Source: a bacterium (lineage in GTDB: Bacteria; SAR324; XYD2-FULL-50-16). From it: a stretch of 64,000 nt of DNA. Below are positions 7,053-22,627 of the stretch, piece after piece (the stretch's first letter is position 1; each line of letters starts with the position of its first letter). The notes below the pieces were generated by a model, which had not been told where the DNA came from, did no database searches, and worked only from the letters and a program-made list of their open reading frames with translations. The stretch covers positions 186,001 through 250,000 of the forward strand of contig JAHJTV010000079.1 of NCBI GenBank assembly GCA_018829445.1, given 5' to 3'. A program made the position numbers and the translations under genes.

Positions 7053-8522
7053 TCATGAAGCTGCAGTATCCATACAGTTTATTAATTCGCTAACATCGAC
7101 TGTTGCTATTCCGGAATTGATATCAGACATCGCATAGGGGATAATCAGCTTGTTATTATGAATCATTGCGCCGCAAGAATAAACAACATTGGGAACGTAT
7201 CCTTCGCGCTCTTTCTCATGTGGCACAAGCAGTGGCTTCGCAAGGCGGGCAATAACCTTTGAAGGATTTTCAAGATCAAGCAGGATGGCGCCGATGCAGT
7301 ATTGACGCATGGGGCCGACGCCATGGGTGAGTACGACCCAACCCTGACTGGTTTCCAGAGGTGATCCGCAGTTGCCAATCTGGATGAATTCCCAAGGATA
7401 TTCAGGCTCCTGGATGATCTGGGATTTCTGCCAGAAATGGATATTGTCTGAGAACATGATATGATTGTTTTCGCCGTCCTGGCGAGAAAGCATGGCATAT
7501 AGACCATTAATTTTCCGGGGAAACAGCGCCATGCCTTTGTTCTGTACCGCTTTACCGTTGAGTGTCAAGATGTTGAATTTGACGAAATCCTTTGTTTCAA
7601 TCAATTGCGGCAATATCGTTACCCCGTTATAGGCTGTATAAGTTGCATAGTAGATAACCTCCCCATTATCATTGAAGAATTGCACGAAACGGGCATCTTC
7701 AATGCCTCTGCTCTCGTTTTTCGAAACCGGAAATATCACCCGCTCAGATATGCGGTGATTGGAGTGGAAACTCACTTCATAATTGGAATCTGCCAACCAG
7801 CGCATGATCTCGAATGCTCTGGTTTGGTCTTTTTTTTCAAATTGTGGTTTTTCGTGAAGATCTTTGATCTGTTCTTGCAATTCCTTAAAAGTAAAATTAT
7901 CCGGAATCCGGCTGAGCACATTTTCGGTTATCGCTTTGTTGGCTCCCATCTCGTTAAGTTTACGTTGAAAAACACTTCGGTGAAAGGCAGCGTCCAATTG
8001 GAGATCAGGTGTTTCCACAAAATCACTGATCGGATCGAAGTGTAGTCTATTATGGCCATCAAGGACACCGCTACGAAAGACAATAGACGAAACATGGCCC
8101 TCGCCGGTTGCACGGAGACTCATGACAAAGCGCAGGCTGCCTTTTTTCAGATGGCTTTGATCAGGATGAGGAACAATAGAAGGGTTGAAAAGGGCGGCTG
8201 ATTCAATGGCGTATTCTTTCGTAAAGTATGCACCGATAAGAGCTTTTTGCACCTCGCTGAGAATTGTGTCCCGGGGAAGATAGGCCTTTACCTCATTCAA
8301 GTGACGTTCAAAAATATGTCCGATGTTTTCATGCCGTCCGGAAAAATCGTCCATTATTTGAGTGAACAAGTTTGCGGCAGCTGTTTCAGAAAGAAGCATT
8401 ATCCGTTGAATCATTTTCGATATGCGATATTTGTCATCAGGAAGATGAAGACGTGTGATTACACGTGACGTATCTCCGTTAATCTTATTTGCTTTTCTTT
8501 CAACCTTTAGCTTCTGACTCAT
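7053..8522 (-). CDS. GH130-family beta-mannoside phosphorylase/hydrolase
   Basis: Predicted cytoplasmic glycosidase-like protein of 489 residues (no signal peptide). GH130 enzymes are five-bladed propellers that phosphorolyse or hydrolyse beta-mannosides. Visible: ALFNPSIVPHP near 111-120, RFVMSLRATGEGHVSSIVF near 131-149, and GIEDARF at 273-279, which corresponds to the GxEDPR catalytic-Asp motif of the family (D276, with Ala where Pro is usual). About 100 residues precede the propeller, longer than the smallest family members. The ATG follows AGGGAAAA. It is last of three co-directional carbohydrate genes with two GT4 glycosyltransferases upstream, which suggests turnover of the same mannose-containing glycan (inference). 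Whether it is a phosphorylase or a hydrolase cannot be decided by eye. Confidence 0.82.
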   Translation of the reverse strand: MSQKLKVERKANKINGDTSRVITRLHLPDDKYRISKMIQRIMLLSETAAANLFTQIMDDFSGRHENIGHIFERHLNEVKAYLPRDTILSEVQKALIGAYFTKEYAIESAALFNPSIVPHPDQSHLKKGSLRFVMSLRATGEGHVSSIVFRSGVLDGHNRLHFDPISDFVETPDLQLDAAFHRSVFQRKLNEMGANKAITENVLSRIPDNFTFKELQEQIKDLHEKPQFEKKDQTRAFEIMRWLADSNYEVSFHSNHRISERVIFPVSKNESRGIEDARFVQFFNDNGEVIYYATYTAYNGVTILPQLIETKDFVKFNILTLNGKAVQNKGMALFPRKINGLYAMLSRQDGENNHIMFSDNIHFWQKSQIIQEPEYPWEFIQIGNCGSPLETSQGWVVLTHGVGPMRQYCIGAILLDLENPSKVIARLAKPLLVPHEKEREGYVPNVVYSCGAMIHNNKLIIPYAMSDINSGIATVDVSELINCMDTAAS

Positions 8523-8634: not shown

Positions 8635-9696
8635 TCAGTTGACACCACTATCTATCTTAGATGCCTCGAAAGCATTTTTCTGGTCTTTGGAGTTGAGAAT
8701 CATTTGGTAAACTTCTATGTATTTTCCAATCATACGCTCGACTGTAAAATGACGATCAATATGACGCCGACAGTAGGCGCGGTCAATCTCTTTAATATGT
8801 GCAACAGACTCAATGGCTTCTTCCACGTTGTTGACTAAAAATCCATTCTTATTATTCTCAATAATTTCAGGCATACTACCACGATCAATGGCGATCACGG
8901 GGGTACCGCATGCCATCGATTCAATGACAGAGAGACCGAAAGGTTCATCAAATTGTATGGGGTGCAATAGAGCACAGGCTTCTCCAAGCAGTTGATTGCG
9001 CTCAACCGGTCCAACGCTGCCGACATATGTTACTTTATCGTTGTCCATATAAGGGGCAACATATTGATCAAAGTAAGCTTGGTCCTGGATAATCCCCGCC
9101 ATGATCAGTTTTTTGTTACAGGCTCCGGCAATTTGAATCGCTTCCTTTGCTCCTTTATCGTTGTGAATACGTCCGAAAAAAAGCAGGGTATCACCAGAAA
9201 CAGGTTGAAAATCAAACAGTTTGATGTCGATACCGTGATGGATGGTTTTGATATAATCAAGTTCAGGCGAGCGGTCGGCATCACTAATGGCAACGTAATC
9301 CGTTTTACCATTGAATTTTTTGAAAACCGGTAGGATTTCAGGAGATGAAAAACCATGAATGGTTGTCACCACCGGGGTGGTGGTCAGACCGGAATAGGTC
9401 AATGGTAGATAGTCAAAGTGGTTATGGATGATGTCGTACTCATCAGCTTGTTCAAATAGCTCTAAAATGTGAAGGCACTCCCAAACTTTTGGAATCAACG
9501 AATGATCCTCTTCATAACCCCGTGGGCAAACCGAGTGCAAAGTACCGCTGGTCTGCGAATCTGCAGTTGCAAACAAAGTTACTTCATGACCGCATGCCAC
9601 TAATCCTTCGCTTATGAGGGAGGCTACGTTTTCCCAAGGGCCATAATGTCGGGGTGGTGTCCGCCAGGCAATGGGTGAAAGTATAGCGATATGCAT
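8635..9696 (-). CDS. Glycosyltransferase family 4 protein
   Basis: GT-B fold glycosyltransferase, 353 residues from the ATG at 9696; the longer frame opens with a TTG at 9702, but an AAGGT site sits at the right distance from the ATG. N-terminal half: IAILSPIAWRTPPRHYGPWENVASLISEGL, typical of nucleotide-sugar retaining GT4 enzymes. C-terminal donor-site half: YVGSVGPVERNQLLGEACALLHP, then FGLSVIESMACGTPVIA with the EX7E-type glutamates. It starts 14 bases after the stop of the larger GT4 gene upstream and precedes the GH130 gene by about 110 bases, so the three are probably cotranscribed. Confidence 0.88.
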   Translation of the reverse strand: MHIAILSPIAWRTPPRHYGPWENVASLISEGLVACGHEVTLFATADSQTSGTLHSVCPRGYEEDHSLIPKVWECLHILELFEQADEYDIIHNHFDYLPLTYSGLTTTPVVTTIHGFSSPEILPVFKKFNGKTDYVAISDADRSPELDYIKTIHHGIDIKLFDFQPVSGDTLLFFGRIHNDKGAKEAIQIAGACNKKLIMAGIIQDQAYFDQYVAPYMDNDKVTYVGSVGPVERNQLLGEACALLHPIQFDEPFGLSVIESMACGTPVIAIDRGSMPEIIENNKNGFLVNNVEEAIESVAHIKEIDRAYCRRHIDRHFTVERMIGKYIEVYQMILNSKDQKNAFEASKIDSGVN

Positions 9697-9710
9697 AGCC
9701 AAGACCTTTA

Positions 9711-12017
9711 TTAAACGGGTTTCTGTAACGATGATTGTTTTAAAATCTCGTCGGCATAAAGCTTTTTTAATGTCATCAGTGAAAGTAACCAGGCAAGCGA
9801 TGATTCCGCTCCCTGATTCTGGTTCATGCCGTCTACCATCAATCCATCCCGGCAGCCACCGGATTTGGAGTCATATAGTACCATATTCAGGTCATTGTGA
9901 CCGAGAAACCAGTTAAAACACATGACAGCATTTTTATACCAGATCTGGTCCCGGGTTATATTATAAGCTTCAACACAGGCTTGGACCATGGCTTTGGCTT
10001 CTATGGGCTGCTGGTCGAAGCGTGCCTTATTGCCACCCTTTTTATACCACCCGTTGCAACCGATAGGTACAAAGTGATTATCTTCGGTTTGGATTGTTAA
10101 CAGCCATTTAAGGGAATTGAGTCCCATATCGATCATATCATTTCGCTGCATCAGGTGACCGGATATCAGCAAGGCATGAGGTAGTTTCCCGTTGGCGTAG
10201 TTAAGTGTGTTTTCAAGCCAGGGCCAATCGTCCGTTTTATTGTCTTTAAACTGGTTAAAAAGTCTGCCGGCAAGAAAGTCCCTGATCCTGCGCACATCAC
10301 TATCCCCGGAAAACCTGTGCAGATAAGCATGTATACCTACTAAACTGTAGGCGAGAGCACGGGGGGAACTGAATTCTTCGATTACTCTCAGAGCTTTATT
10401 AAAGAGGGTAGTACTCATAGCCAGGTAACCGGGATCATCAAGAAAAGTCACTGTTTTACCAAGGCACCAGAGTGCTCTGCCATGTGAATCCTCGGAGCCT
10501 GTTTCTTCTGTCCAGTTCCTTGAATAGGTCATGAAATTGCGAAAACGTCCGCTTTTTTCATTATAGGCATACAGAAGAAACCCGAGATAATGACCGCTGA
10601 GGGTTTCAAGTCCATAACCGTTAGTTGGCAGATATTTTTGTCCCATTGCGGTTACGAGCAGCGCTCTGGCATTATCGTCAGTACAATAACCATGAGTACG
10701 GTCGGGGGTAGTGTAGTTGGCATGCTGTAGCATGCCGGTATCATCGGTAATTGCTTTGAGGTGATTGAGCTTGATCTCCGGGAGTTCAAAACTTGTGATG
10801 GCTTTGATATTTTCAACGTAAGAGTGCCGGGGACGAGGGTTTCGAGTCCGGTTATTTCGTACTTCACTGAACAGCTGGAGATATTTTCGGGATACTTCTT
10901 TCCAAATGGCTTCACGGCTGAATGTATAGGCTTTTTTACGCATGGCGTGTCGTTCAATGTCATTACCCAAAAGTCCGATAACCTGTTCTGCAATGGTATC
11001 CGGATTATTGAAGGGGACAATTCGTCCACGGCCTTCGGCCAGCATTTCTGTGGCATACCAGTAAGGTGTCGAAATAACAGCTTTTCCGCTACCCATGGCA
11101 TAGGCAAGGGTACCAGACGTTATCTGGGCTTCATCAAGATATGGGGTAATATAAATATCAGCGATGCTGAGGAACTCACATAATTCTCTCAAGGCTACAA
11201 AGCGGTTTTGAAAAATAACATGCTCCTCGATGTGGAGTTTACGAACAAGCTGCTGCAAATCAATTCGGTATGCATCTCCATGCAGCTTTAAAATATGTGG
11301 GTGTGTAGCCCCCAGAACAATATAGACTACTTCAGGATGTTCTTTGACAATTGCGGGTAGTGCTTGCAGCACCGTTTCAATGCCTTTATTGGGTGATAGC
11401 AATCCGAATGTGAGCAGCACCTTTTTCCCTTCCACCCCGAATTTGTCCTTATTGAAGCTTGAATCAATAAATGGTGTATCCGGAATGCCATGATGGATGA
11501 AGGCAATTTTCTCCTCGGGCACATCATAAACATTTTTAAGGAAATCCGAGGCTTTTTGACTCATCACCACCAGTTTATCGGAAAGATCGGATAGTTTGCA
11601 CATGACCTCGTGGTATTCCGGGGCGGGATCTTTCAAAACTGTGTGCAACGTCGTTACCACAGGCATACGCAGATCAGCTAACAAATTCAGCAGATGACTG
11701 CCGGCGAGACCTCCGAATAGACCATATTCATGCTGCAAACAGACAATATCCGTTTGACTGATATTTAAGAATTGAGCTGCAACACTATAATCAGTCAACC
11801 TGTTCTGGTTTATCTCAAAGCGAACTTTTTCCGGATAGGAATATCCTTCGGGTTTATCATTCATAACGGCGGCCCAGCAGTTCACGTCCGGGGCTTCCGC
11901 AGTTAATCCTTCAACCAGGTCTGTGGTAAAAGTTGCGATGCCGCATTGGCGGGGCAGATAGTTGCCGATTACTGCAACCGAGTTAATGCCCTCATAATAC
12001 TTTATTACAGATGTCAT
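9711..12017 (-). CDS. GT4 glycosyltransferase fused to a C-terminal helical (alpha/alpha-barrel-like) domain
   Basis: Protein of 768 residues from the ATG at 12017; a GTG six bases upstream extends the frame, but the GGAAA site is better spaced for the ATG. Residues about 15-390 are a GT4 GT-B domain: YLPRQCGIATFTTDL, LQHEYGLFGG, FGLLSPNKGIETVLQAL, and YLDEAQITSGTLAYAMGSGKAVISTPY in the donor site. Residues about 400-765 are a separate domain with MLQHANYTTPDRTHGYCTDDNARALL and WLENTLNYANGKLPHALL, resembling the helical barrels of glycan-processing enzymes. Such fusions are known next to GH130 genes. The fusion suggests a polymerising or chain-modifying enzyme (inference). Co-directional with the second GT4 and GH130. 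Confidence 0.85.
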   Translation of the reverse strand: MTSVIKYYEGINSVAVIGNYLPRQCGIATFTTDLVEGLTAEAPDVNCWAAVMNDKPEGYSYPEKVRFEINQNRLTDYSVAAQFLNISQTDIVCLQHEYGLFGGLAGSHLLNLLADLRMPVVTTLHTVLKDPAPEYHEVMCKLSDLSDKLVVMSQKASDFLKNVYDVPEEKIAFIHHGIPDTPFIDSSFNKDKFGVEGKKVLLTFGLLSPNKGIETVLQALPAIVKEHPEVVYIVLGATHPHILKLHGDAYRIDLQQLVRKLHIEEHVIFQNRFVALRELCEFLSIADIYITPYLDEAQITSGTLAYAMGSGKAVISTPYWYATEMLAEGRGRIVPFNNPDTIAEQVIGLLGNDIERHAMRKKAYTFSREAIWKEVSRKYLQLFSEVRNNRTRNPRPRHSYVENIKAITSFELPEIKLNHLKAITDDTGMLQHANYTTPDRTHGYCTDDNARALLVTAMGQKYLPTNGYGLETLSGHYLGFLLYAYNEKSGRFRNFMTYSRNWTEETGSEDSHGRALWCLGKTVTFLDDPGYLAMSTTLFNKALRVIEEFSSPRALAYSLVGIHAYLHRFSGDSDVRRIRDFLAGRLFNQFKDNKTDDWPWLENTLNYANGKLPHALLISGHLMQRNDMIDMGLNSLKWLLTIQTEDNHFVPIGCNGWYKKGGNKARFDQQPIEAKAMVQACVEAYNITRDQIWYKNAVMCFNWFLGHNDLNMVLYDSKSGGCRDGLMVDGMNQNQGAESSLAWLLSLMTLKKLYADEILKQSSLQKPV

Positions 12018-12129
12018 AACCACTTTCCATTTTTACTTCTGATTCGTAACTCAAGCCATATGAGCCAGGTTTTTCGACGTTTACCCTCAACAATGTTCGG
12101 AAAAATTTGATATGATGCAACAAATTCCC

Positions 12130-12351: not shown

Positions 12352-12588
12352 TTAATCGGTCGACTGATTTCTGTGGCCGGATGTTTCATCAGCAGAACTC
12401 TCAGATCCTGAAAGTGCGCCTTTGTTAGGCGTCATATTGCTATAATAACCATTGGCTGTATCCAGTTTGGTTATTTTCCCGCCTTTGTTTACATATTCTT
12501 CCACAGCGTTATTGATAAATTTTCTATTGGGTGTGAACGATACTTTTTTTTTCCGCGAAGAGCTCTCGTTTTCTATTTTATTTATCAT
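12352..12588 (-). CDS. Small conserved-type protein with a basic linker and GGKITKLD motif
   Basis: Protein of 78 residues from the ATG at 12588, chosen because GGAG stands four bases upstream; a longer frame from 12615 lacks this. Sequence features: an early basic patch SSSRKKKVSFTPNRKF, then a predicted helix FINNAVEEYVNKGGKITKLD, then a polar Ser/Asn-rich tail. The VxxYLxKGGKITKxx pattern resembles the end of several small RNA-polymerase-associated or stress proteins such as SutA, but the resemblance is weak and no function is claimed. Co-directional with the surrounding stress/glycan block. Confidence 0.6.
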   Translation of the reverse strand: MINKIENESSSRKKKVSFTPNRKFINNAVEEYVNKGGKITKLDTANGYYSNMTPNKGALSGSESSADETSGHRNQSTD

Positions 12589-12730
12589 ACATCTCCATTG
12601 ATCTTTAATTAACAACGGATCTGCCGTCTTTGGTCAGGGATTTTCCTTGATTTCGGATATTAAGCCGGGGTGGTAACCGGCAGCATTTTTCCAACTCCTC
12701 TTTTTGCAGACTGTCCTGTGTGATACCAAT

Positions 12731-13072
12731 TCAACCTGAGAGATTATTTTTTGTTTCTCTTGAGGAGTTCACAGCCTCTATTCCTTCAGAGGCTGCAACG
12801 GTAAAAATTTGAATTTTAAGTGGTTTGCATAAAAGTGTCTTTGATCCGAGTAAAACACTGAATCTATGCGACCTCATATGATGATTCAAATCTTCACGGG
12901 TTTCCCACTCCTCCAACAGGTTATAACAGTTCTTGTCTTCGATATCACTATAGACGCCATAGCTCAGACAACCTGTCTCCATTTCCGTTGCTTCAATCAT
13001 GGAGAGCAGTGTTTGCGTGAACTCCAACTGTTTTTCCGGCAGCACGTTCAATGTTATCCTGACAATGATCAT
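12731..13072 (-). CDS. Antibiotic biosynthesis monooxygenase (ABM) domain protein
   Basis: Small dimeric ferredoxin-like ABM-family protein, 113 residues from the ATG at 13072; AGGAG sits at normal distance there, whereas the longer frame from 13102 has none. Typical pattern: IIVRITLNVLPEKQLEFTQTLLSMIEATEMETGCLSYGVYSD, then NLLEEWETREDLNHHMRSHRF, where the strand-turn-helix and EEWETREDLNxHxxS segment match quinol monooxygenase YgiN-like proteins. Likely role: oxidation or protection against small aromatic or quinone compounds (family knowledge), specific substrate unknown. It sits in the same direction as the block controlled by the nearby sigma-54 activator. Confidence 0.78.
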   Translation of the reverse strand: MIIVRITLNVLPEKQLEFTQTLLSMIEATEMETGCLSYGVYSDIEDKNCYNLLEEWETREDLNHHMRSHRFSVLLGSKTLLCKPLKIQIFTVAASEGIEAVNSSRETKNNLSG

Positions 13073-13203
13073 GAAAGTTCTCCTCTGCGTAGAGCAGAAC
13101 ACTCCACAATAAGAACAAGTGTTTGCATAATTAGAGATCTCCCTGAATAAACCGTTGCCGCATATTGGATATTTGAAAATTTCAGAGTGCCGATAACAGA
13201 TTC

Positions 13204-13554
13204 TTACTGGCCATTCTTCATGAGCGATGTGGAACAGCTGTCTGCGATTTGAGTGTCTGGCTCTGCTTCAAAAGGCATTGTTGCCCAACCCTGGTCCATG
13301 ATGTATTGCTCTTTTTTCCAGAAATCAATATTTCTGAATTCCACCAGCTTTTTCTCTTTCTCCAAATCCTGGTTGAACTGAGCAACACACATCGGGGTCA
13401 AACGCTCGATGACAGCACTCTGAGCCATCTTTTTACCTGAATCCAGCGAGGTGCTGCCTAAAACCCATCCACCCATTGAAAAACCGACAATCATCGTGAC
13501 AACTGCACCACCGATTGCACTCCAAATACCAGTTTTAATTTTCTCTTGATTCAT
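13204..13554 (-). CDS. Membrane-anchored conserved hypothetical protein
   Basis: Protein of 116 residues. One N-terminal membrane segment (GIWSAIGGAVVTMIVGFSMGGWVLG, roughly residues 9-33) ends in a GGWV motif, followed by a soluble part with AVIERLTPMCVAQFNQD and QGWATMPFEAEPDTQIADSCSTSL. This pattern matches a conserved hypothetical family I recall from proteobacteria; function is unknown. Two cysteines (in PMCV and DSCS) could pair. GGGGAA precedes the ATG. It is the first gene downstream of the tandem palindromes and the sigma-54-like promoter described separately, so it is the likely first gene of the activator's regulon. Confidence 0.72.
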   Translation of the reverse strand: MNQEKIKTGIWSAIGGAVVTMIVGFSMGGWVLGSTSLDSGKKMAQSAVIERLTPMCVAQFNQDLEKEKKLVEFRNIDFWKKEQYIMDQGWATMPFEAEPDTQIADSCSTSLMKNGQ

Positions 13555-13614
13555 TTGAGTTCCCCTGTTTTAAAGATTAATCATATTTAGAATTGAAATA
13601 CATATACTTCTATA

Positions 13615-13630
13615 CTCAAGATTCAAGCCA
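13615..13630 (-). promoter_or_regulatory. Sigma-54-like promoter (imperfect -12 element)
   Basis: On the minus strand the sequence TTGGC, seven bases, TTGA occurs about 60 bases before the ATG of the 116-residue membrane protein. Sigma-54 promoters have GG and GC dinucleotides spaced by ten bases; here the GG is perfect, but the second pair reads GA. The spacing and the upstream activator-type palindromes make it a candidate despite the mismatch. Confidence 0.4.
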
Positions 13631-13729
13631 AGGGGGCTGGTGATTGATATATTGTGTTTAAGCGGCTGATTACAATGGTGATACTTTTGATTGATGTTTG
13701 ATTGCTATCTGAAATATTGGAGGGATTTC

Positions 13730-13763
13730 ATGGTCATATATGACCATTGGTCATATATGACCA
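13730..13763. promoter_or_regulatory. Two tandem perfect palindromes (candidate activator binding sites)
   Basis: TGGTCATATATGACCA occurs at 13731-13746 and again at 13748-13763, so the two 16-base palindromes repeat every 17 bases; the first extends to 18 bases (13730-13747). They lie between the sigma-54 activator gene and the 116-residue protein gene, roughly 100-130 bases upstream of the sigma-54-like promoter. That is the classic location of enhancer-type upstream activating sequences for NtrC-family regulators. No other copy was noticed in the window. Confidence 0.65.
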
Positions 13764-13859: not shown

Positions 13860-15407
13860 TTACGGCTTCATGATACCCAGTTTTCGCATACGTGCACGCA
13901 GGGTGCTACGATCAAGCCCAAGAATTTCTGCAGCCCCGTTATTTCCGGCGATTTTCCACTGGCACTGTTCAAGCACCTGGACAATGTGATCTCGCTCCAC
14001 CGTTTCCAGCGTTTTCTGGTTTGGTCTGTTATCCGTTAACGGTTTCTTGAGTTCATCAACCAGGCGTAATTTAGGGCCCGATGAATTAATCACTCCTCTC
14101 TCAAGAACGTTTTCCAGTTCCCTGATGTTTCCCGGCCAGTGGTATTTTTTCAGGGTATTCATGACACTCACAGGAATCATTTCAATCACCTTACCCAACC
14201 GCTTGGATATTTTTTTGACATAAAAATCAACAAGAAGCGGAATGTCGTCTACTCTGTCACGGAGTGGGGGCATAGTAATCGGAAATATATTTAATCGGTA
14301 CCAGAGATCGTCACGGAAACGTCCCTTGCGAACCTCTTCTTCCAGATTACGATTGGTAGCTGCAATAATGCGTGTATCGATTTTAATGGTGTGGGAACTA
14401 CCCAACCGTTCAAACTCACCGTCCTGGATGACCCTGAGCAGCTTTGGCTGCAATTCCAGTGGCAATTCACCGATTTCATCCAAAAAAATAGTTGCACCGT
14501 TGGCAATCTCAAATCGTCCCAGCCGTCTGGAATGAGCACCGGTGAAAGCTCCTTTCTCATGGCCGAATAGTTCGCTTTCAATTAGACTGGAAGGCAATGC
14601 GGCACAATTCATTTTGATTAGAGCACGATCCTTACGCAGACTCAAACCGTGAATGGCTCGAGCCACCAACTCTTTGCCGGTTCCGGTTTCACCAAGAATC
14701 AGTACATTTGTATCAGTACCGGCGATCTGTTCGACCTTATAGAAAACGTAATTGATTTCGTTACTTTGGCCGATAATATTCTCATGGTTGTATTCCAGTT
14801 TGATTTCTTCCTGGAGATAGGCTCTTTCAGCTTCAAGTTTGTCCTTTAACTTCTTAATCTCATCAAGGGCAGTTTCAGTCAGATGTTTGCTTTTTTCCGC
14901 TTCTTCCCTTGCGATGACAAGTTCGGCCGTTCGTTTTTCAACAATCTCCTCAAGATTTCTTTTATAATATTCACGCTCAGTCACATCCTCAATTGCCAAC
15001 AGAATCAACTCGGTTTGATCAGATTTTTGGTAGATCCGTCTGGCATTCAAATGCATTATCTTCCAACCGACAGTTTCAAAGTTATGTTCCACTTCAAAGT
15101 CATTGAATATGGAATTCTGTGGAAGGATATCTTCAAGTAGTTCTCTGAGTCTGGGAATATCCCATTGCCGATTTCCGATATCATATATCAGCAATCCTTC
15201 TGTTTCATCCGGATTAGCGTTGAATGTCTGGTAAAAGGAATAATTGGCTTTTACGACCTTCAGGTCGGAATTCAACATCATTAATGGTTCACGAATCGAG
15301 CTCAAAAAATCCTCAAGAACTTCAACATGGGTCCGTAACATTTGTCTGTTTTGTCCAGAGTACTCAGGTTTTTGTTCCGTCTTTTTAGATGGTTGATAGT
15401 AAAACAA
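13860..15407 (-). CDS. Sigma-54-dependent transcriptional activator with PAS sensor domain
   Basis: NtrC-family enhancer-binding protein of up to 515 residues. Residues about 30-145 are a PAS sensor domain; 145-205 a coiled-coil signalling helix; 210-450 the AAA+ domain with Walker A GETGTGKE at 239-246, the sigma-54-contacting GAFTGA loop at 286-291 and Walker B TIFLDE at 306-311; 470-515 a Fis-type helix-turn-helix (GAAEILGLDRSTLRARMRKLG). There is no receiver domain, so control is probably by PAS ligand or partner. The long form begins with TTG; an ATG at residue 23 (15341) also fits, just before the PAS domain. The tandem palindromes just downstream are its likely DNA targets. Confidence 0.92.
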   Translation of the reverse strand: MFYYQPSKKTEQKPEYSGQNRQMLRTHVEVLEDFLSSIREPLMMLNSDLKVVKANYSFYQTFNANPDETEGLLIYDIGNRQWDIPRLRELLEDILPQNSIFNDFEVEHNFETVGWKIMHLNARRIYQKSDQTELILLAIEDVTEREYYKRNLEEIVEKRTAELVIAREEAEKSKHLTETALDEIKKLKDKLEAERAYLQEEIKLEYNHENIIGQSNEINYVFYKVEQIAGTDTNVLILGETGTGKELVARAIHGLSLRKDRALIKMNCAALPSSLIESELFGHEKGAFTGAHSRRLGRFEIANGATIFLDEIGELPLELQPKLLRVIQDGEFERLGSSHTIKIDTRIIAATNRNLEEEVRKGRFRDDLWYRLNIFPITMPPLRDRVDDIPLLVDFYVKKISKRLGKVIEMIPVSVMNTLKKYHWPGNIRELENVLERGVINSSGPKLRLVDELKKPLTDNRPNQKTLETVERDHIVQVLEQCQWKIAGNNGAAEILGLDRSTLRARMRKLGIMKP

Positions 15408-19420: not shown

Positions 19421-22400
19421 TTACACGGAAGAGAGGGTTATTTTTCGTAGTAATTCGGTCATCTCCTCGGAAACAGGCAGGTTCAAGTTGCTTTTCATGG
19501 TTTGTTCATAAAGCCGGTAGGTTTTTTCAGCTTCAGAAATGAGTCCCTGGGAGTGGTAACACAGGATCAGGCAGCGGTAAAACTCTTCAATGGTATTATC
19601 GATTCTTAATCCTTTCAGGTACCTGTCAGCAGCCAACCGATATTCTCCTTCAGCTTCCAACAGGTTACCCAGCCTTAATAGAAGCTTTACGAAAGTTCGT
19701 CTCAGGTTTTCCCTGATAGATATCGCCCATGATTCCTGGCAGGAATAGTGGCCATGGTAAAGACTGATCGCTTCCTCCAACAGATCTATTTCCTGCTGGT
19801 GCGACAGCTTTTGGTCGAGAGAAAGATCTGAATTTTTAATCTTTCGATCCAGAGCCTCGAATTGCTGATAATCGAGGTAGCACATGACAGGATTCAGGCT
19901 CAGTCGTCCTTCATTCATATGGATGCAATCATCCACGCCGATCAGCTTTCTAAGTCGATGAAGGGTGATTTCAAAGTTCTTGTGTCCGGAATCACCTTCG
20001 GCGTCGGGCCATAAAGCATCGGTTACCCTGTCTTCATCGATATCCTTTCCACCCAGAGTAACAATCAGCCGGAGCATTTCAAGGGGTTTCTTTGGAGGTT
20101 TTCCCTTGAACCGCTGCTCAGTGCCGTCAATTTCAAACCGGAAACTTCCCAGTGTGTAAAACCGGATACGCCAGGGCCAAACTGCAATACTCACGGGAGG
20201 GTGATCCGGTTGAAGATTTCTTAAAGATACCAGCTTTTGAACATATGGTGTTTCAATTCCAAGCTCCAGGGCTGTCAGGCACAGTCGGGTCATAACCCGG
20301 GGCAGGAAAAGCCAGAAGTTCAATAGATCACCTCTGTGTCCAAGAATCATGGCTTTTTCCAGGCTTTGTACCACTTGGTCACGAGTGCCACAATCAAACA
20401 TCAAAATGGCATGGGTGCACATTGATTGGAACCTGAGTAGCGAACTGTCCATTCTTTCACTGAGTGCAATCGCTTTTTTAGAGATTTTAAGGGCCTGTTC
20501 GGGTTTTCCTTTCTGGTGTTTGCAGAGGCAAACAGCCTGGTAACCGATCACCAAAGGAATAGTTCCTCCCAACTCTTCCGCCATCTTTAACGCTGTTTCA
20601 GCATGGTTTTCAGCCTGGCGCAGATCTCCTGCCAAAAGGTGCAGCCAGGCAGATATGCAGTGGTACATTGCCACTGTGTAAAGCATTCCCGGGATCATTG
20701 CCTGAGACATCCGTTCCAGGTAGTTCCGGGCCAGATCGTAGTTCCCACCGCTCAGTGCGCCGGCAGCACCAAAGCCGAGAAAATGAGCGTCCCACAAGTG
20801 AATGCCTTGTTCTTCCGAAAAGGATAAAGCTGCTTCTGTTTCCTGCAAACATTGATCCGAGTGCCCCGTTAACCAGTATCTTCCGGCAGAAGCCAGCCTG
20901 ACAAGGACGATCCAGAATGGGTGGGCTTCTCCTCCTTCTGTTTGTCGGCGCAGGGTATCTACTATGAAACCAATACTGGAAAAATCGCCGGTATAGAGAT
21001 AATGGCTGCACAAGGCAAATCCGGCTACCAGCTTAAGATTCTCATCCAGGCTATTCAACAATACATTGCGCGTGCGCTCCAGCCACTCCTTAAAATCGGG
21101 GTGATCCGGTTGTCGGTTGACCATGGCACCAAAAATCGTGGATGCTGATCGCTCTTCAATCTCCCGAGAGGGAAAACCCTTGTTCTCGGAGACTAGCTGA
21201 ACCATCTTGTCGATCCAGTTGTTTAGCAGATGAAAATTTCGCCCCTCTACAAAAGTAGCCTCGGCAGCACCGGCGATGATCATCATCATTTTAACGGGAT
21301 CATTGCGATTTAAAAGTAATGCATAGGCTTTTTCAAAGATAATCCTTGCCTGAGTCGGATTATAGGGAAGCTTACAGATCGCAAGCCAGTAATACAGCCA
21401 TGGGTGGGTATCGATCTCTTTCTCTGGAATCTTCTCTATCCAATTCTCGAGTGTTTTCCACTTGGTCTGATTGAGAAACAATCCGGCGCTGCGATTAATC
21501 AATTCTGCCATGGCGGACCAGTCACCTATTTCTCCCAACAGTCTTAGAGATTCATCCACCTGACCGTTTTCTTCCAGCAACAGAGCTGCCCTGATGCTTA
21601 GGCATCTGATCTCGCTTTCAGTCAGTAACTCCTTGGCTCTATTTAAAAGAAACTGGCGAAATAATGCGTGATATTGATAAACGGGCGTTTCTCCGGGACG
21701 GAACTCAATAAAGTAGTTGTTTTTTTTGAGATCGGGCAGAATTCTGGCGGAATCGTGAAGAGTCAGTTTTGATACTAGCTCCACAGGCATTTTGGTTAAC
21801 AGTGCGCTTTTTATCAGGAAATCTTTTTTATCACAATCAAAATGCCGAAAAACTTCATTTGACAAATAATCAAAGGTGAGTTCTGAACAGGTTTCCAATG
21901 ACAGATTCGGCTCAAATCCTGATTGTCTGGCGCTTTCTGCCAAAAGGATCAGTCCGGCCATCCAGCCGTCTGACCGATTGTTCAGCTTTTCCACCAATTT
22001 ACCGGGAATCTTATCATTGATGCGGGTTCGCAGTACACCCTGTGCTTCTTCACCAGTCAGACGTAGCTTTTGCCAGGAGATCACCTCCATTTTATGATCT
22101 AATCGAAATTTTGCCAGGTTTGATGACGGTTCAGAGCGGCTGATAAAGAACACCTGAATATCTTTAGGTAATATCTCCAGCAGGACATGAAACACTGTTA
22201 GCATTGCCGGGTTTTCCGGCAGTTCCTGAAAGTTGTCGAACACAATGACAAAGGGAAGTGATAACCCGGAAAACATAGTCTGAAAAAACCGTCGACAAAA
22301 TGCCGGAAGACCTAATGTGTATTCGGGAGTAAAAAATGGCAGGTTGTCTGGGCTGGAAAACCCGGATTCCTGAGCTGCCATTCTCATGTTGAAGAAGAAA

Positions 22401-22627
22401 GATGCAACATCGTCATCACTGTCATCTATTTGATAGTAGCAATGGGAGATTTTAATTTTCTCCAGGTATCCACCGACAACGGTCGTCTTTCCTGCCCCCG
22501 CTGGTCCTCCAATCCAAACGACGGATTTGTTCCTGCTTTTTCTAAGGATCTGATAAATCCGATTTCGATGATAGATTCCTGTGAGGGTCGGAGAAATAAC
22601 CTTCGAAGGGAAAACTGCACTAGTCAA
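19421..22627 (-). CDS. Large MalT/BTAD-type transcriptional regulator (STAND ATPase, TPR, OmpR-type wHTH)
   Basis: Regulator of 1068 residues. The N-terminus has Walker A GGPAGAGKTTVV near residue 41 and a P-loop signalling ATPase core (FVIVFDNFQELP as Walker B, VFFISRSEPS as sensor), as in MalT-type proteins. A long helical repeat region follows (about 330-790). The C-terminus carries an OmpR/SARP winged helix (FYTLGSFRFEIDG ... NFEITLHRLRKLIG) and a BTAD domain (AISLYHGHYSCQESWA ... LCYHSQGLISEAEKTYRLYEQ). Thus DNA binding is C-terminal with a transcriptional activation domain, unlike MalT, which ends in a LuxR helix. The start is a TTG with no strong ribosome site. Its inducer and target are unknown; the adjacent TRAP transporter is a plausible target. 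Confidence 0.88.
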   Translation of the reverse strand: MTSAVFPSKVISPTLTGIYHRNRIYQILRKSRNKSVVWIGGPAGAGKTTVVGGYLEKIKISHCYYQIDDSDDDVASFFFNMRMAAQESGFSSPDNLPFFTPEYTLGLPAFCRRFFQTMFSGLSLPFVIVFDNFQELPENPAMLTVFHVLLEILPKDIQVFFISRSEPSSNLAKFRLDHKMEVISWQKLRLTGEEAQGVLRTRINDKIPGKLVEKLNNRSDGWMAGLILLAESARQSGFEPNLSLETCSELTFDYLSNEVFRHFDCDKKDFLIKSALLTKMPVELVSKLTLHDSARILPDLKKNNYFIEFRPGETPVYQYHALFRQFLLNRAKELLTESEIRCLSIRAALLLEENGQVDESLRLLGEIGDWSAMAELINRSAGLFLNQTKWKTLENWIEKIPEKEIDTHPWLYYWLAICKLPYNPTQARIIFEKAYALLLNRNDPVKMMMIIAGAAEATFVEGRNFHLLNNWIDKMVQLVSENKGFPSREIEERSASTIFGAMVNRQPDHPDFKEWLERTRNVLLNSLDENLKLVAGFALCSHYLYTGDFSSIGFIVDTLRRQTEGGEAHPFWIVLVRLASAGRYWLTGHSDQCLQETEAALSFSEEQGIHLWDAHFLGFGAAGALSGGNYDLARNYLERMSQAMIPGMLYTVAMYHCISAWLHLLAGDLRQAENHAETALKMAEELGGTIPLVIGYQAVCLCKHQKGKPEQALKISKKAIALSERMDSSLLRFQSMCTHAILMFDCGTRDQVVQSLEKAMILGHRGDLLNFWLFLPRVMTRLCLTALELGIETPYVQKLVSLRNLQPDHPPVSIAVWPWRIRFYTLGSFRFEIDGTEQRFKGKPPKKPLEMLRLIVTLGGKDIDEDRVTDALWPDAEGDSGHKNFEITLHRLRKLIGVDDCIHMNEGRLSLNPVMCYLDYQQFEALDRKIKNSDLSLDQKLSHQQEIDLLEEAISLYHGHYSCQESWAISIRENLRRTFVKLLLRLGNLLEAEGEYRLAADRYLKGLRIDNTIEEFYRCLILCYHSQGLISEAEKTYRLYEQTMKSNLNLPVSEEMTELLRKITLSSV

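Follow-up and report, generated by a model that had tools for sequence, protein, structure and literature searches.

Two perfect palindromes in the window, which is the whole 64-kb stretch of DNA analysed here, most probably serve as docking sites for the neighbouring sigma-54 activator. We hold with high confidence that they form the upstream activator sequence (UAS), or enhancer, of this adjacent PAS-type activator, which would act with IHF at a -24/-12 promoter and would belong to a dispersed regulon passed between lineages. In many bacteria of the sulfate-reducer type the predicted switch is found again with its spacing unchanged, often before stress-related genes, and it has apparently jumped between distant lineages. 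The sites, the promoter, the spacing, the IHF-like element, the conservation and the co-occurrence of site and activator were all read from the sequence.

Palindromes, predicted promoter and activator in the window

The sequence TGGTCATATATGACCA is a perfect 16-bp palindrome and is present in two copies, putative UAS palindrome 1 at 13748-13763 and palindrome 2 at 13731-13746 (no strand assigned), which are 17 bp apart both from start to start and from centre to centre. The whole 64-kb window has no other perfect palindrome of 16 bp, and two such palindromes within 40 bp of each other did not occur in any of 100 dinucleotide shuffles. The two copies lie between two genes on the minus strand, i.e. 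the activator gene (13860-15407) and the gene for a 116-residue protein (13204-13554). The initial annotation, which had described two 16-base palindromes 17 bases apart between the gene of a sigma-54 activator and the following one in the same direction, is thus exact on both points. The GG-N10-GA element that it had placed about 100 bases downstream was also found, at 13631-13615 on the minus strand. This predicted sigma-54 promoter (TTGGCTTGAATCTTGAG) has the GG at -24 and the N10 spacing of the consensus, whereas its -12 element is TTGA, with GA in place of the consensus GC, at a conserved position. Between the UAS and the promoter there is an IHF-like site, AATCAGCCGCTTA (13659-13671, minus strand), which fully matches the IHF consensus WATCARNNNNTTR at offset 93. 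A search of viral contigs for the exact tandem palindrome gave no match.

The activator (515 aa, minus strand) consists of an N-terminal PAS domain (PAS_9/PAS_4), an AAA+ domain (Sigma54_activat, 1.1e-70) and a C-terminal Fis-type HTH (HTH_8, 2.3e-9). The motifs GETGTGKE at 239, GAFTGA at 286, FLDEIGEL at 308 and FRDDLWYRLN at 364 are intact, and the protein therefore has the features of the bEBP family, namely the AAA+ sigma-54 interaction domain, the GAFTGA loop, Walker A/B and the C-terminal Fis-type HTH. A Pfam domain search found no receiver domain, the PAS domain being the sole N-terminal one. Since the receiver domain is missing, the name 'NtrC-type activator' given in the initial annotation fits the AAA+ class and not the two-component NtrC family. 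The AAA+ and HTH regions match best the NCBIfam models for FhlA, NifA and NorR, with scores all below the cut-offs (399.6 vs 830, 368.9 vs 528.85 and 361.6 vs 476, respectively), and the protein is also under the cut-off for NtrC. By its domain content, it is a one-component PAS-type sigma-54 activator, NtrC-like in a broad sense only. The recognition helix of the HTH reads [DN]RSTLRAR in the activator orthologs and is different in the other activators of the same genome. A second sigma-54 with an altered -12 preference was considered and rejected, for there is one rpoN each in the genome of the window (G000) and in G009, a genome of the same family and another genus.

Conserved geometry and the choice between explanations

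The locus in G009 is syntenic with that in the window, with identities of 81% for the activator, 58% for the 116-residue protein and 62% for the ABM-domain protein encoded further downstream. The non-coding DNA has diverged except for the palindromes (TGGTTAAATATGACCA and TGGTCATATTTAACCA in G009 for palindromes 1 and 2, respectively), an ATCAG...TT element, the -24/-12 element (TTGGCTCGAACCTTGAG in G009) and the gene start, the main islands of identity being the palindromes and the -24/-12 element. The geometry was examined at 18 loci with a generic sigma-54 consensus having no preference for TTGA, taking the best match per locus over offsets 50-229. In 16 of them the best match begins 130-133 bases from the first palindrome (binomial P = 1.8e-23, which is only a guide, because the loci are homologous and the value overstates their independence). 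The -12 element of these 16 promoters is TTGA in 14 cases, TTGT in two and TTGC in none, and some promoters in the delta-proteobacterial MAG G067 and in Desulfopila carry TTGC. The profile of the IHF consensus over 16 loci also has its maximum at offset 93, the same offset as in the window. Conserved palindromes about 100-150 bp upstream of a predicted sigma-54 promoter and an intervening IHF-like site correspond to the arrangement of an enhancer and its promoter. Several observations count against this reading: the -12 element is TTGA instead of the consensus TTGC, though conserved as such; at C50 in the own genome the best promoter lies at 143, outside the fixed spacing; a clear promoter is missing at two sites, G009 C475 and L074; the activator gene beside the site in G060 is split; and the own genome holds over 100 activator-like candidates, another of which might also use the site.

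The distribution of the sites follows that of the activator. Among 58 relatives, the strict tandem pattern was found in G000 and G009 only (control pattern, 0), and among 52 genomes of the class an activator ortholog (E<=1e-128) occurs in exactly these two. A wide scan of 84,980 species, with one genome per species and the motif alone as the query, without the activator, gave 23 matches in total. Seventeen of these fall in 13 genomes (G009 and 12 others, mostly labelled Desulfobacterota), all 13 of which encode an activator relative. The best activator matches in them are 63-81% identical, apart from G060, where the split copy beside the site gives 74-82% over two frames and further matches give 58-59%. 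The remaining six matches are in five genomes (Calothrix, Spirochaetaceae, Clostridia, a delta-proteobacterium and Acidimicrobiaceae), in which no activator relative was found at the same threshold. Single sites with two mismatches in C60 and C119 were discarded as chance matches, being inside genes and having no partner site, and a pattern of the promoter with a single site gave extra matches in G002 and G028 that were no more frequent than those of the control pattern. As side observations, in G062 a palindrome pair lies between two tandem activator copies (L074:1406-4778), the second of which contains stops, and a contig with a complete Desulfobacterota-type locus (L088) is found in a MAG labelled Alphaproteobacteria SZUA-429, by either misbinning or transfer.

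The palindromes might instead be the operator of a different protein (e.g. a dimeric GntR/FadR-type repressor, TGGTC...GACCA) that modulates the promoter, the activator being merely a neighbour. Many kinds of regulator have operators of perfect dyad symmetry, operators of other families have half-sites like this one, and the C84 and C50 sites of the own genome are away from an activator gene. However, an activator relative is present in every tested genome with a credible pair and absent from those without one, the distance to the sigma-54 promoter is fixed with the IHF-like site in between, and the recognition helix is conserved along with the site, all of which make such an operator quite unlikely. 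We consider it highly unlikely that the pair is a true enhancer for a paralogous activator or one common to several: the genome has about 100 activator-like candidates and the G009 C235 site is adjoined by a 55-56% identical paralog, but the recognition helices differ in the own-genome paralogs, and no sites occur in genomes of the same genus that have dozens of paralogs and no ortholog. A terminator-like score for the 13748-13763 repeat on the plus strand would agree with RNA or DNA hairpins, either ending transcription of the activator gene or folding in an mRNA. Yet the activator gene lies on the minus strand, where the AT-rich hairpin has no T-run, terminator counts across the region are no higher than in shuffles, and the palindromes keep their place with respect to the promoter even at loci with no activator gene ending upstream, as before groES, which renders this last explanation extremely improbable. 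The core reading of the initial annotation, i.e. upstream activator sites and a -24/-12 promoter served by the adjacent activator, is in turn strongly supported by the conservation, the fixed spacing, the IHF-like site and the co-occurrence of site and activator.

With the palindromes taken as enhancer, we infer the binding, activation, signal, start and operon extent as follows. Activator dimers would bind both palindromes through the Fis-type HTH, IHF would bend the DNA between the palindromes and the promoter, and the assembled AAA+ ring would contact the RNA polymerase-sigma-54 at 13631-13615 and open the promoter. Transcription would start near 13604 and run into the genes for the 116-residue, ABM-domain and 87-residue proteins, with the PAS domain presumably sensing a signal. 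The same switch would run a dispersed regulon including stress-related genes, passed between lineages as activator, operators and targets together.

Downstream genes, predicted regulon and probable horizontal transfer

The predicted first target (13204-13554, minus strand) encodes a 116-residue protein with a hydrophobic N-terminus and two conserved Cys, which has no match in Pfam or NCBIfam; its structure model is helical with a mean pLDDT of 66, i.e. of low to moderate confidence. The gene directly follows an equivalent promoter in L068, L071, L072 and L082, and its predicted control by the activator and promoter is well supported by the sequence. Relatives of this gene were also seen in L013, L014, L015 and L016, which are genomes of the class or contigs where this activator is not alongside. 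The likely second gene (12731-13102, minus strand) encodes an ABM-domain (antibiotic biosynthesis monooxygenase-like) protein (PF03992, 3.4e-16), whose homologs, 53-68% identical, are downstream of the sites at most loci and are encoded by the first gene at several other loci. It is followed by a gene for a conserved 87-residue protein (12352-12615, minus strand), paralogs of which appear as direct targets at G009 C235 and C380, and by the glycan block on the same strand, comprising two glycosyltransferases (PF00534) of 770 aa (9711-12023) and 355 aa (8635-9702) and, at its end, a GH130-type phosphorylase (7053-8522; PF04041, 1.4e-34). The glycosyltransferase genes keep this neighbourhood at two Desulfobacterota loci (83-84% identity for the larger protein in L069 and L073, and a partial match of 85% for the smaller in L073). 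No palindrome site was seen in the 328-bp gap before the glycosyltransferase, and from 13554 to 12023 the minus strand has no predicted terminator, region-wide predictions not exceeding those in shuffles. It is possible that the glycan genes are under the same control. Elsewhere in the window, 19421-22627 encodes a large MalT-like regulator with a BTAD domain.

Two further sites lie in the own genome. The C84 copy (C84:103609 in G000; L051:3610-4175) has the UAS and promoter, then an apparently decayed 116-residue gene and an intact 87-residue paralog, and the C50 site is upstream of a gene for an sll1863-family stress protein. G009 has six palindrome pairs, before the 116-residue gene, the ABM gene, two 87-residue paralogs and groES-groEL, the target of one being unclear. 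The pair in G009 C141 (L050:3005-3382), with the promoter GTGGCTTGAAACTTGAG, is upstream of groES-groEL, for which sigma-54 control is predicted. Moreover, G067 has eight pairs, most with a promoter offset of 130-134, adjoining genes for BON-domain, YflT, PRC-barrel and peptidase proteins, and one of them comes directly after an activator gene whose product is 70% identical to that of the window. These downstream gene families (groES-groEL, sll1863, BON, YflT and PRC-barrel) support the suggestion that the switch serves a stress regulon. As for the proposal that the activator controls the glycan/stress block, a stress role is supported by genes behind like sites elsewhere, and in the window itself control is well supported for the first gene. 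Two side observations concern target genes: in L084 (CP070746.1), around 5200, an ABM gene begins behind the conserved promoter and is soon cut short, apparently a broken target gene, and L113:4260-4886 and L115:4849-5466 encode similar-looking, probably secreted proteins near sites in two genomes, possibly a common regulon member. RpoS, RpoH, SigB and other alternative sigma factors usually run such stress responses. We propose only tentatively, and with some doubt, a horizontally mobile sigma-54 regulon in which the PAS activator and its operators, with the variant TTGA -12 element, would run a general or envelope stress response in Desulfobacterota and the window lineage, through the chaperonin, BON, YflT, sll1863, PRC-barrel and glycan genes.

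The two glycosyltransferases are 83-85% identical to those at Olavius-symbiont loci, and the C-terminal part of the activator 74-82%. For the housekeeping CarB, the identity is 87% with a same-genus genome, 83% with G009 and only 42% with Desulfobacterota. Furthermore, the activator ortholog and the 116-residue gene are both absent from the same-genus genomes G001 and G002. Because the block is so much closer to Desulfobacterota (74-85%) than CarB is, and because G001 and G002 lack these two genes, it most likely moved horizontally. Its base composition is no different from the rest of the window, and composition alone therefore gives no sign of transfer.

Relation to known sigma-54 systems

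For bacteria that are largely uncultured, an orphan sigma-54 activator can now be assigned a defined operator, a promoter geometry and a predicted regulon, with sigma-54 control predicted for groES-groEL and further stress genes and with activator, operators and targets common to lineages whose CarB is only 42% identical. A literature search found no earlier account of the motif or the regulon. The window activator shares with NtrC the AAA+ sigma-54 interaction domain, the Fis-type HTH and the tandem upstream sites, but unlike the two-component NtrC regulators it has no receiver domain, and its palindromes are 17 bp apart. With FhlA, NifA and NorR it shares the AAA+ domain, the HTH and the enhancer-dependent mode of sigma-54 activation predicted for it, whereas its scores are far under their cut-offs, its sensor is a PAS domain and its target genes differ.

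Parallels are also found in Desulfovibrio vulgaris, where comparative genomics of the sigma-54 regulome predicted one-component PAS activators, inverted-repeat sites and conserved -24/-12 promoters (PMC4641369). The main text of that paper lacks the motif TGGTCA...TGACCA, and the consensus there is tGGcacg / tTGCt, as against TTGA at -12 in the window, a conserved element that is directly testable. In the orp operons of the same species, regulation by the activator DVU2106, IHF and sigma-54 has been measured (PMC3897727). Although the target genes are different, the orp system is alike in layout: it has palindromic activator sites upstream (at -131 in orp1), an IHF site between (-79), a sigma-54 promoter and an adjacent activator gene, and its order of UAS, IHF site and sigma-54 promoter is that of the window.
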